From NCBI RefSeq assembly GCF_040954835.1, contig NW_027168383.1, positions 497,501 through 561,500 on the forward strand: 64,000 nucleotides of DNA, given 5' to 3'. This DNA is from Lepisosteus oculatus. Taxonomy: Eukaryota; Chordata; Actinopteri; Semionotiformes; Lepisosteidae. Made by a program: the position numbers and the translations under genes. Below, piece after piece: positions 32,430 through 37,700 of this stretch. The notes beneath the pieces are model-generated. The model saw only the letters and a program-made list of their open reading frames with translations, was not told the DNA's origin and did no database searches. Position 1 is the stretch's first letter. The number at the start of each line of letters is the position of its first letter.

Positions 32430-32554
32430 CAGGGGAGAGCGCGGACGCAGTCCCCCACTACCAGAAATTATGCAGTCGAGATTCCCTTATTTGGGGAATT
32501 CGCAGGGGTCAGCACAGCCGGAGTGCAATGGCCGAGCCTCGCCCTGGGTGAACC
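32430..32554 (-). pseudogene. U1 snRNA 3' part (nt 40-164), split by a LINE
   Basis: Corresponds to nucleotides 40-164 of U1, with the same Sm-site variant as the complete copy. It breaks at GGTTCACCCAGGG, where the 3' end of the LINE is joined. The matching 5' piece is at 37,672-37,700. Confidence 0.92.
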
Positions 32555-32765
32555 GATTTCGATTTTTCGATTTTTAAGAACTTTATTTTCTTTTCACAAT
32601 AAAATACAGGACATCACAAATCAGAAAGCTTTACATTAATATACATACTTAAAACAGTATATATGATCACATCTCATTACATTTTGACACGGTAACAGTT
32701 ACATAGTAACAATTTATTTTTTTCTGGTGCAAATCACATTCTTTACTTAAACATGATAATGTTTT

Positions 32766-35700
32766 TCACAGTCTCTTGAGATATTGACCTATGCTCTCTA
32801 TTTCCCACAGATTTTCTGCTTCCTCCCTCCCTTCTCTCCACAGATCTCTGAGGTAATAGTTCTCTCGGGTGATGAACAGGGCCAGGCTACCTGCTGCCTT
32901 GACTGGGACCTCGATGCCTTTGAACAGCCCCATGTTCCTCACTCTCCACAGGGCGTCTTTCCCACTGTTCACCACGGCCCAGATCCTGTCAAACACGTCA
33001 GGAGGAAGTTTGACAGGAGAGATGCCGTATATGACGAAAGCAGCGGTCAGGGTAAATTGGGGCGAGAGAGCCTGCAACCAATCTTCAAACTGTGCCCAGA
33101 AGGCCTTAGCAAAAAAACAGGACCACAGGAGATGGGTCACAGTCTCCTCCTCGCCGCAGCCCACCCTAACGCAGCGAGGCCCCTACGGTACAAGAAAGTT
33201 CGTACCGGTAAGCACTGGTGGACGACACTCCAGGCTAAATCTCTGTGAATGTTGCACAGAAACTTAGAGGATGTGTGTTTCCACACCTTCCTTGTTTGGG
33301 CTGATGTTAAAATGCCCACAGGGGTCTGCCTATTATTCTGGGGTGCAACGAAATCTTCCAGTTTTTGGACGCTGACATCTCGGAAGGGAATATGGCCAAT
33401 TGGGTGAGATCTTAGAAAACTTTTAACTGTCCCATAAATTGCAGGGCATGTGTCAGAGAGTGGGACGTCCAGCTTGGGTCTGACACCCCACACTCTGAAC
33501 ACCTCCCTACCTACCCAGAGCCTGGAAAAATAAGTCCAGGTACGCGCTGCAGGTGCTGTTGCAAAGCCTCTCAGCACAGAGGCCAGGAAAATGCACAGCA
33601 GCTTCGTAGCAATATCTGGGACAGACTTCCCCCCTGAGGGTAGCGGCCTGTACATTATTTCCCTTCTGAGTCTTTCCTGCTTCCCACCCCATAGAAATTG
33701 AAACATCAATCTCCTCAGCACCGCCGCAACACGGTGTGGGATTGGGAAGGTAGAAGCCAGAAAATTCAAGACAGACAAGAGCTCGGCTTTGATGACCAGC
33801 ACCTTCCCTGTCATGGTGAGGTCTCGGTCCTTCCATTGCATCAGTTTTTTGTTTAAGATTGGCAATTTGTTCTGCCAATTTACTGTTCCCATCTCTTCTC
33901 CAAAATACACCCCCAGGACCTTAATTCTCTTCTCTTGCAGCCTGAGATCATGTCCTTCTATTGGCTCCCTCCAGTTCTGATAAAAAATCTCACTCTTAGA
34001 TTTGTTAATTTTTGCGGAGGAAGCCAAAGAGAAACGATCACAGCACTGCAGAGCTCTGCTAATTGAGGCATTGTCAGAGAGGAGCAGGGTGACGTCATCC
34101 ATGTATAGAGATGTCTTTACCTCTCCTCCCCCACTTCCAGGCACTGGTATCCCATTAATGGCCTGATCCTGGCGCAAGGCACAGGCTAAGGGCTCCATAG
34201 CCAAAACGAATAACAAGGGGGATAATGGGCAGCCCTGCCTCACCCCTGAACAGACTTCAAAGGGGCGTGATCTATTGCCATTAACCATTACTCTGCTGTT
34301 GCTACCTGTGTACAGCAGGTTAATCCACTTTCTCATGATGGGGCCAAACTTCATGTGCTCAAGTACCGATGTTAAGTACTGCCGGTTTAGGTGGTCAAAG
34401 GCCTTTTCTAGGTCTACACCTAAAATGCACAGAGGGAGGGAGCGATCCTCTGAGTACAGACAGACATCCCTCAACAAGGCCAGGTTGTCGCTCATCAGGC
34501 GTCCTGCTATCCCACAAGTCTGTTCTTTCCCTACCAGTGAGGCCACTACATTTTGTAGGCGCAGGATCTTAGCGTCCACGCCTAAGAGGCTGAGGGGTCT
34601 CCAGTTCTTTATGTCATTCTTTGCTCCTTTCTTAAACAAGAGAGAGATAGTGCCTTCTCTTAAGGAGTCAGGCAGCTATTCTGTCTTATAGCTTTCCTCG
34701 AATAGGAGCAGTAGCGGATCCTGAAACAGATCCCAAAAGGTGCAATAAAATTCTTTAGGCAGCCCGTCAGCACCCGAAGTTTTCCCCTTCTGTAAGCTCT
34801 CCATAGCCTGTCTCAGCTCTTCTACTGTCAAATCCCTCTCAAGTACTTCCCTATCTTCTTCACTCAAAACGTTTTCTAGCTTTGAGGTAAAAAAATGAAT
34901 TTCTTCATCCTTTACCTCTGTAGAGCTGTACAGTCTTGAGTAGAAGGCCTCGCTGCAGGAGAGGATAGTACTCGGCTCTGTTCTCTCTCGTCCCTCCTCA
35001 ACAACACTTTCCATGACAGACTTGGAGCCTACCACTTTCCTGAAAAAGAGGCGAGTACACTTCTCATTTTCTTCCAAGAACTGCACTCTGCTTCTTAACA
35101 GCACTCCTCGACTACTTTCTTCGGCTATGCTCCGGATGTCCTTTTTTAAAAGGGTGATATCCTCGAGCACATCGAAGCCACTGTGCAGCATTGTGTAGAG
35201 ACGCTGCAGCTGCCTCTGTTTCCTGGCTAGCACTCCTCTCCGTCTGGCAGCAGCCTTCCTTCCCTCAGCCATGAAAAAGGCCTTTGTCCTCATCTTCACC
35301 TCCTCCCACCACTCTCCTACTGACCCGTACAGACACTGCAAGGACAGCCACTGTGATAGTTTCTCCTTGTAGCGGGATACTACCCCCTCGTTCTCTAGCA
35401 GCTTTGTGTTGAGTTTCCAGAGGCCTGGGCCAAAGACAGTCCCGCCCTGGAGTTCCACTCTACACCCTAAAGCCTGATGATCTGAGAAGAAGACAGGCTG
35501 AAGAGTGACCCCAACAACTTTCACTCTCTCTGAGACAAAGCAATAGTCAATTCTGGAGCTGCTATTCCTCCCTGACCATGTACATCCTGCTGTTGTGGGA
35601 TATATACATCTATATGTGTCTGAGAGTTTAAAGTCTTGAACTAAGTTTTGCAGGGCCAGTGAGCTGGAATCCAATTTTATCGGAGAGCTAGACTGCCTGT

Positions 35701-36151
35701 CTTTGTGCTCTAAGATACAATTAAAATCCCCTCCCACTATCACGTCTGTGCTACTTAACAATAGGGGAGAGAGTGCCTTGAGTAGCTCCACCCTTCCTCC
35801 CACGTCAGTAGGACAATACACATTGATTAGCCGCAGGTTAACGGTCCCCCATTCCACATCCACACACAGCAACCTGCCATCTATGACCCTCTGAATACTT
35901 TTCAATTTGAAAGCCCATCCTTTGAAAAGAATGGCCACGCCAGAGGCTCTGTTGTTATTGTCCCCTGACCAAACAGAAGGCCCTTTATCCCACCTATCTT
36001 CAAAGCTTTTATACCTCTCTTGATAGGCTAAAGCACACTCCTGCAACATCAACACATCTCCCTCTCTCTGCTGGAGGTAATCAAAGACACACTGGCATTT
36101 AACTCTGTCATTGATACCTCTGGTGTTAAGAGAAATTATGTTTAGAGCCAT
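32766..36151 (-). pseudogene. LINE ORF2: APE endonuclease and reverse transcriptase
   Basis: About 1,128 residues. The AP-like endonuclease comes first (MALNIISLNTRGINDR, LMLQECALAY, LINVYCPTD, IVGGDFNCIL, TWSGRNSSSRIDYCFVS, FFSDHQAL). Then comes RT (LFKKGAKNDIKNWRPLSLL, LGVDLEKAFDHLNRQYL, SGVRQGCPLSPLLFVLAMEP, LYMDDVTLLL). A C-terminal region has a cysteine/histidine motif (CGEEETVTHLLWSC) and a helical tail. It nicks the target and primes reverse transcription there. An in-frame TAG follows ESYKTE (near 34,676) between the endonuclease and RT, and a frameshift lies near 33,160 before the C-terminal motif, so it is inactive. An upstream methionine at 36,190 is a less likely start because it overlaps ORF1. 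Confidence 0.88.
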
Positions 36152-36177
36152 ATTACATAAGAAAGTGGAACCAGTCT

Positions 36178-37604
36178 TTACAAAACACATTTCTCTTCGG
36201 TCTCACCTGTTACCTTCTTCTTTTTCTTTTTCTTCTTACCAATTTCCTGCCAGCCATCCTCTGAATGAGCCTTCATCAGGGTGGCAGCAGTAAAAGCGTT
36301 CACCGAGTCCATTTCAAGGAAGGGGGTAGAAGGAGGGGTGGAGGGGTTCCAGCTGTCCCCATCGCCATGCTCTCCTTCCTCCTCGCTCGGGGAGAAAACA
36401 GAGTCATTTTTCCTTTTCCTCAAGTCCAGCTCCTGGGAGCACTGAGGGGAAAGGGGTGCAGCCGATGCACCAGTCTCCTCTTCCCCCTCACCCACCAGCT
36501 GTTGCAGATCCTCCGTGACGGACTGGATGGAGGAGAGGAGGGCATCTGTAGCACTTGTAGAGTCTGAGAAAAGCAGCTCCGCTGAATCCTGGGTATCGTC
36601 GCTGGACCCGCTCCACCGGGGGGCCCCACACTGGCCCTCGTTCTGAGGAGCAGGAGTGGGGGAGGGGTCCTCGCTGTTCTCTGGGGTTTTCAAACCCTCG
36701 TGCTTGTCTGGTGCAGTCTGCGGTTGTGGGAGCGTAGTGGATTTCTCTTCCACCGGCCCCGGAGCCACAGCAGGACTGATCCTGGCTGGAGGCTGAGACT
36801 CTTTGTCCAACAAGGGTTCTTTGTTTGACTTGTTGTTTGCTTTGGCTTTTCGGGCCGGTTTGGCTGAAACAAGCACTGCCTCATCCTTTCTCATTTTGAG
36901 TTTATTGGCGTAGGTGTGAGGGCAGTTCTTAAAAACGTGTCCTTTCCGAGCCACATAAATTGCACTTTGGCAGCATTGAACAGTCAGAGGCTAAATGTCC
37001 CTGTTTGCCACAGGTCTTGCAGCATTTCACAGTGCAGGACGATGCCAGGTGTCCCACAGCACCACAGCGCCGACACACCTTTGGTTGTCCCACATAAAAA
37101 ACATAGCCATTGCAGGCGCCCAGCCGGATTGTAGAGGGCAGGTGCCTTAAGCCTCCATTTACATTGTCCGGTAGCAAGCGAACCTCGAATTTCCTTGCTC
37201 CTGTTTTTATACCGTCAACATCTCTAACCTCAGTTCCATGGTGGACGGTGCAGTACTGCTTAAGCCAGGTGTGAATGTCCTCCGTCTTTGCCAGTTCCGA
37301 GAACATAACAACATGCACCGTTTTCCTCTCTCTCTGTGTCAGAGGCTGCAAGCTGATCTTCTCAAGGGCAGGAACTTTCCCTCTTTTTGCCTCAAACACA
37401 TCCATGCATTGTTCAAACAGAGAATAGGTAGCAAAAAACCTCAAATGCTTTCTGACCTGGGAGAGCGAAGATGAAATCCAAGTGCCGAGGTTCAAAGCCA
37501 AGTTCCTTCTGTAACACTTTTCTGCTGAACTGCATACGATCCATGAAGAGGTCATCCAAAAGCTCAAAACGTACAGCATTCTTGCGGGATCCAAAGGTTG
37601 CCAT
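36178..37604 (-). pseudogene. LINE ORF1: RNA-binding protein with CCHC knuckles
   Basis: Starts MATFGSRKNAVRFELLDDLF. Central sequence GYVFYVGQPKVCRRCGAVGH is followed by CKTCGKQGHLASDC and a third knuckle CNLCG...GHVFKNCPH, that is, three zinc knuckles of Tx1-type ORF1. The C-terminal half is Pro/Ser/Glu-rich and ends in a lysine run. Frames change near 37,420 and again inside the third knuckle near 36,935, so two frameshifts are visible. Confidence 0.82.
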
Positions 37605-37671
37605 CTCAAACTGCAAAACAAACACTGCTTCCACAAAACAAGAAAACAATCCAACTACTCCAACTACAGGC

Positions 37672-37700
37672 TGATCAAGGTATCTCCCCTGCCAGGTAAG
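37672..37700 (-). pseudogene. U1 snRNA 5' fragment (nt 4-32)
   Basis: The 29-base piece including CTTACCTGGCAGGGGAGATA matches U1 nt 4-32. On its 5' side the sequence switches to the promoter-proximal part of the U5 repeat unit (GCCTGCGGCTCTCGG on the minus strand), so this U1 has also lost its own promoter. Confidence 0.85.

Follow-up and report, generated by a model that had tools for sequence, protein, structure and literature searches.

A U1 small nuclear RNA (snRNA) gene split by a long interspersed nuclear element (LINE) lies in the stretch of Lepisosteus oculatus DNA analysed here (contig NW_027168383.1, positions 497,501 to 561,500; 64,000 nucleotides (nt), hereafter the window), and very probably the element belongs to a LINE family of many copies that has the U1 snRNA gene as its landing site. 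With an intact U1 gene of the same window as the yardstick, the 3′ side of the interrupted gene matches U1 nt 40-164 at 122 of 125 positions by blastn, and the 5′ side matches nt 4-32 at 29 of 29. An Rfam scan of the window gives a match to RF00003 at 32430-32589. Between the two flanking pieces seven U1 bases, nt 33-39, are absent, which we take to encode the loop of stem-loop I, and alignment to the intact gene reveals no target duplication. The element ends in ...TTCTTAAAAATCGAAAAATCGAAATC, followed by U1 GGTTCACCC; its tail is a short AAAAATCG repeat with no poly(A), and the G at the junction can be assigned to tail or U1 alike, giving a one-base ambiguity. It is thus confirmed that a LINE splits a U1 gene in the window, and the alignment agrees with the initial annotation, which had placed nt 40-164 and nt 4-32 at the 3′ and 5′ ends of the element, with seven bases lost, no target duplication and a tail other than poly(A).

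Table 1. Features of the interrupted U1 gene and its surroundings (window coordinates; ORF, open reading frame; UTR, untranslated region)
Feature	Position	Strand	Basis
Intact U1 gene	29703-29866	-	Rfam RF00003, 169.3 bits; uninterrupted comparison
Segmental duplicate of 28604-29827 (5S, U1 3′ side and flank)	31314-32554		96.8% over 1,242 aligned positions
U1 snRNA nt 40-164, 3′ side, directly after the LINE 3′ end	32430-32554	-	blastn against intact U1
Full-length LINE (5,117 bp), oriented like U1	32555-37671	-	Boundaries from U1 alignment; 5′ and 3′ ends match other genomic copies
LINE 3′ tail (AAAAATCG)2AAATC, then U1 GGTTCACCC	32555-32575	-	Sequence; tail length differs between copies
ORF2, endonuclease and reverse transcriptase	32766-36151	-	Pfam, frames, alignment
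ORF2 C-terminal part	32766-33182	-	Frames
ORF2 reverse transcriptase	33140-34675	-	Pfam RVT_1, 2e-31
ORF2 endonuclease	34679-36151	-	Pfam Exo_endo_phos, 7.7e-15
ORF1, ZCCHC3-type RNA-binding domain and CCHC zinc knuckles, three frames	36181-37604	-	Pfam, frame analysis
5′ UTR, 67 nt, between U1 nt 32 and ORF1 start	37605-37671	-	Sequence
5′ piece of the interrupted gene, U1 snRNA nt 4-32	37672-37700	-	Alignment to intact U1
U5 repeat unit joined via CTT to U1 nt 4	37698-38098		92-93% to four U5 units; Rfam RF00020
U5 gene inside the fused unit	37836-37949	+	Rfam RF00020

One U1 gene occupies 164 of the 64,000 window bases, so that a random insertion would hit it with a chance of about 0.3%; counts of matches across the host genome carry more weight than this estimate. 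We searched 1,200,105,466 bases in 813 contigs. A query drawn from the LINE only (window 32555-32955, no U1 letters) gave 850 candidates, of which 40 were scored and 30 read; these 30 are the closest copies, one being the window itself and many being duplicates of one block. U1 nt 40 or 41 directly follows the LINE in 29 of the 30, and in the remaining locus (L028) the LINE runs into the U1 3′ flank. Genome-wide, a 35-letter pattern for the LINE 3′ end (at most 3 mismatches) matches at 598 places, and a 30-letter pattern for the tail/U1 junction (at most 3 mismatches, no gaps, which would miss diverged or deleted U1) matches at 324, namely 314 plus 10 with another tail; reversed controls gave no match to either. 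A 48-letter pattern comprising the LINE 3′ UTR, a one-repeat tail and U1 matches 244 times (reversed control 0), and its places listed on contigs C1 and C4 are also among the 314. The intact window U1 gene has eight mismatches to the junction pattern and so is not countable as a junction. Contig C1 carries 13 junctions across about 157 kb, all on one strand and spaced by 6.7-21 kb, as well as one more with another tail. On contig C14 many LINE 3′ ends have one mismatch, some of them arranged as inverted pairs about 3.3 kb apart.

Full genomic regions were read around LINE copies at 20 places. Sixteen of these (L053-L068) carry one and the same block, in which a U5 unit is followed by U1 nt 4-32 and then the 5′ end of the LINE; this is one insertion multiplied by later duplication. 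L069, located on a contig of 60 Mb, carries a full-length LINE with U1 nt 40-164 after it and, before it, U1 nt 2-32 preceded by 54 nt of U1 upstream DNA (87% identity). In L072, a 5′-truncated LINE that starts at its nt 2562 has U1 nt 1-57 ahead of it, with 434 nt of upstream U1 DNA before that, and U1 nt 40-164 behind it; this copy has a 13-18-bp duplication of U1 target, with five bases common to U1 and LINE at the join. A second copy in L072 has U1 nt 40-145 on its 3′ side and a 5′ end beyond the region, and in L070 and L071 LINE nt 4277-5107 runs into U1 nt 40-88, with no U1 sequence seen upstream. The window block, L069 and L072 therefore have a common 3′ junction at U1 nt 40, together with a different 5′ end in L072 and differing tails, and three tail lengths stand before one and the same U1 base. 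On the evidence of these junctions, at least two insertions at the same 3′ site are certainly separate, and possibly more. A tree of 33 LINE 3′ parts (19 of them different), drawn from the best-matching copies only, has short branches, which would fit a young family; homogenisation would look alike.

The short 5′ UTR places ORF1 close to U1, so that proteins predicted for relatives in other species might carry translated U1 at their N termini. Comparison of 174 proteins with translated gar U1 gave an exact match of eight residues in two. In P0160 of Mugilogobius chulae the U1-derived peptide is YLPGRGDTMITKVV, and the protein reads SNSYLPGRGDTMITKVVH. A single frame of U1 that opens slightly ahead of nt 1 and reaches about nt 43-46 fits this reading, apart from a few departures from the gar sequence; ORF1 starts about 19 residues beyond this stretch. 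In P0167 of Erpetoichthys calabaricus (LTWQGRYL), U1 to about nt 27 is followed by further residues and then ORF1. A third protein, P0030 of Xiphophorus maculatus, has ILTWQGR in a changed U1, followed by a 5′-truncated ORF2. Pfam confirmed ORF1 or reverse transcriptase domains in all three. No such U1 peptide occurs in the remaining 19 of the 21 ORF1-search matches, many of which, where inspected, start at or inside ORF1 and are hence silent. Single five-letter matches to the U1 peptide were dropped as noise, as shuffles of the 174 proteins give about 25. The truncated gar copy of L072 (5075-5135 in LINE-sense orientation) and P0030 both begin, after U1, near one position in ORF2 (an SSRG motif), a possible coincidence observed in these two cases.

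We propose that an apurinic-type endonuclease would nick the antisense strand opposite U1 nt 39/40 (or 40/41), and that the freed 3′ end would prime reverse transcription of a LINE RNA ending in the short AAAAATCG repeat, that is, target-primed reverse transcription. The place at which the second strand is cut would vary: nt 32 would be the last base kept in full-length copies, which lack 7 nt, and in the 5′-truncated copy the cut would fall near nt 52-57 and duplicate 13-18 nt. The LINE may be transcribed from U1 promoters. In the window, U1 nt 4 was later joined to a U5 unit by rearrangement and segmental duplication multiplied the resulting block, so that many near-identical copies do not count as separate insertions. 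Target-primed reverse transcription starting from a fixed nick would be expected to produce what is seen here: one common 3′ base with 5′ ends that vary, insertion in the sense orientation, repeats in the tail and, in L072, a duplication.

Two accounts dispense with targeting or with target DNA on the 5′ side. If a LINE had landed by chance, and only once, in one U1 gene, and segmental duplication together with homogenisation of the small-RNA gene clusters had then multiplied it, this would explain why 16 of the 20 regions have the same U5/U1 4-32/LINE block, why the compared copies are near identical and why several form opposite-strand pairs on one contig. This account is already contradicted by the truncated L072 copy, which uses the same 3′ site with a 5′ end of its own and carries a target duplication, and the three tail lengths, the U1 DNA upstream of the U1 5′ end in L069 and the U1 sequence beside relatives in three other species also speak against it; we regard it as highly improbable. 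The U1 5′ fragment might instead have arrived with the RNA, either as a U1-promoter transcript comprising U1 nt 1-32 and the LINE or by template switching, its 5′ end then being joined to the U5 unit. The fusion of U1 nt 4 to the U5 unit through 3 nt of microhomology would suit such an origin, as would the chimeric LINE-1/RNA insertions reported for mammals in excerpts of PMC13174262. However, the U5 fusion is seen in the amplified block only, and U1 upstream DNA precedes nt 2-32 in L069 and nt 1-57 in L072, so that in those two loci U1 on the 5′ side was target DNA already in place. An RNA-borne fragment is accordingly an improbable source.

Several observations weigh against the preferred reading, a LINE family that lands in U1 genes. 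With 16 of the 20 regions duplicating one block, independent insertions are far fewer than junctions, and only two are certain. The goby, reedfish and platyfish evidence covers the 5′ side only and comes as protein, in which gene prediction may join exons. LINE 3′ ends (598) outnumber junctions (324). As the two figures were obtained with different patterns and neither set contains the other (the junctions on C1, for instance, do not appear among the LINE ends listed at one mismatch or fewer), the difference of 274 is only rough. On contigs C2-C12 (C13 onward being left out), 11 LINE 3′ ends have at most one mismatch, and two of these have a perfect junction while nine have none, a count that does not cover mismatched junctions. 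The surplus 3′ ends may lie elsewhere, may be diverged, may have lost their U1 or may belong to rearranged units. Loose specificity, with U1 favoured and not exclusive and a large share of copies at other places, for instance on the 60-Mb contig C14, would draw on this excess, on the nine low-mismatch ends and on the many LINE 3′ ends listed on C14. Against it, all 30 LINE-only loci lie in or adjoining U1 (29 directly, one with a deletion), though these are the best-matching ones, and the junction patterns are blind to diverged or deleted U1; we consider this account a serious candidate, if an unlikely one. The initial annotation, for which a single copy was too little to tell targeting from chance, had made the 3′ flanks of other copies the decisive comparison. 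Among the closest loci the flank is U1 nt 40/41 in 29 of 30, as targeting predicts, and unrelated flanks are possible for a large share of the 598 ends. The proposal of U1 targeting itself is supported by those 29 loci, the 324 junctions, the independent insertion in L072 and the three other fishes.

The coding content is that of a non-long-terminal-repeat retrotransposon. In ORF1, Pfam identified RBD_ZCCHC3_2nd (3.3e-24) and zf-CCHC (4.4e-07) and found no L1 ORF1 domain, two of the three frame pieces having been scanned. CCHC zinc knuckles in ORF1, as opposed to the L1 ORF1 fold, are typical of the Tx1 clade, and these two pieces conform to that. The Exo_endo_phos and RVT_1 domains belong to one ORF, now divided by a stop, as in site-specific non-long-terminal-repeat retrotransposons, and the endonuclease of ORF2 is of the endonuclease/exonuclease/phosphatase (EEP) kind, apurinic-type and not restriction-like, as in Tx1. 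ORF2 has one in-frame stop and a frameshift near 33140-33182, and alignment to relatives indicates a short in-frame deletion; judged by its frames, the window copy is not intact. Other genomic copies have stop-to-stop frames of up to 1,156 residues, so the damage is not common to all copies. The best ORF1 match is a protein of Atractosteus spatula (97% identity over 64% of the query region), representing 13 member sequences.

A reverse transcriptase tree was built from 105 sequences, the window and 104 database proteins of at least 800 residues (shorter ones were left out), none labelled Tx1, Keno, Mutsu or Dewa. The window ORF2 falls within a 21-row group with a Shimodaira-Hasegawa-like approximate likelihood-ratio test (SH-aLRT) value of 99. 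Together with P0058 this group (22 rows) is sister (SH-aLRT 88) to a 17-row group holding P0069, ‘pol-like protein [Danio rerio]’, which is 37% identical to the window ORF2 and which we presume to be one of the published zebrafish families; its record gives no target. The domain make-up and this tree, built with no labelled Tx1 reference, make membership of the Tx1 clade likely. Further afield, no ORF2 relatives were found in IMG/VR contigs, where one U1 pattern gave two stretches with no Rfam match at gathering score and the other gave none. Contigs of GTDB genomes yielded 12 weak relatives of ORF2, and an Rfam scan of four of them (L001, L002, L003 and L005) gave no match. L1 ORF2 proteins, L1-type endonucleases and R2 proteins make up most of the 15 PDB matches, which are uninformative on the target.

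Target-specific Tx1 elements, according to excerpts of PMC4640811, use an apurinic-type endonuclease. Keno is described in passages of PMC4640811 and PMC3706591 as a Tx1-clade LINE in U2 snRNA genes; like the gar LINE, it has an apurinic (APE)-type endonuclease and occupies one site of a multicopy animal snRNA gene. Keno's description sets the two apart, the gar target being U1 and not U2: the copies read here are in or adjoin U1, and the Rfam scan found no U2 match in the window. Mutsu, which targets 5S rRNA genes, and Dewa, which targets a tRNA-Leu spacer, resemble the gar LINE as target-specific fish elements at multicopy small-RNA loci and differ, by their descriptions, in the targets themselves (excerpts of PMC3706591). 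Dada-U1 is a fish transposon specific for U1 genes, yet it is, in the portions of PMC3706591 and PMC8869645 consulted, a DDE DNA transposon whose site, GCGAAT/GCGAAC, lies further along U1 and for which a 6-bp duplication is proposed, whereas the gar LINE sits at nt 39/40; the window element encodes EEP and reverse transcriptase domains and no DDE transposase. Utopia and R2 are likewise site-specific LINEs, precise at the 3′ junction and variable at the 5′ one, and differ in having a restriction-like endonuclease, where the gar LINE has EEP, and U2 or 28S targets (excerpts of PMC4640811). A literature search that did not extend to Repbase found no U1-targeting LINE, in keeping with the initial annotation, which knew of none. 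We rate this as a new target specificity, U1, for a known kind of element.

A wider reading, on which we are evenly divided, is that these elements form an old U1-specific LINE lineage reaching from reedfish and gar to goby and platyfish and aimed at the stem-loop I coding region as R2 is at 28S; in gar it would be joined to U1 at hundreds of places, and would sit in clusters of splicing-RNA genes and help to break and rearrange them. LINEs with a fixed site serve as models for integration that does little harm, and they might become tools for inserting DNA at specific sites. A U1 LINE would add a highly conserved target, and would let the switches of related enzymes between U2, 5S, tRNA loci and U1 be compared.

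Outward of 37698, the surroundings of the window copy hold the U5 unit in place of the U1 promoter and U1 nt 1-3; the fusion of this unit to U1 nt 4 occurs at a 3-nt microhomology, the common CTT. The unit is 92-93% identical to four U5 units within 38930-40854. We considered this U5 junction as a mark of the insertion event and rejected it, as L069 and L072 keep U1 DNA upstream. Units of about 508 bp form a tandem U5 array at 38765-40922, and from 16545 to 44034 the window is made up, as a mosaic, of small-RNA gene clusters segmentally duplicated in direct and in inverted orientation. Elsewhere in the genome, several LINE/U1 copies come in pairs, the two members lying on opposite strands of one contig about 7-13 kb from each other. 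Away from the U1 genes, positions 459-1864 and 6136-7541 form a 99.7% direct repeat and, further on, 10224-13883 holds reverse transcriptase, RNase H and integrase domains, an arrangement that suggests a long-terminal-repeat-type element.

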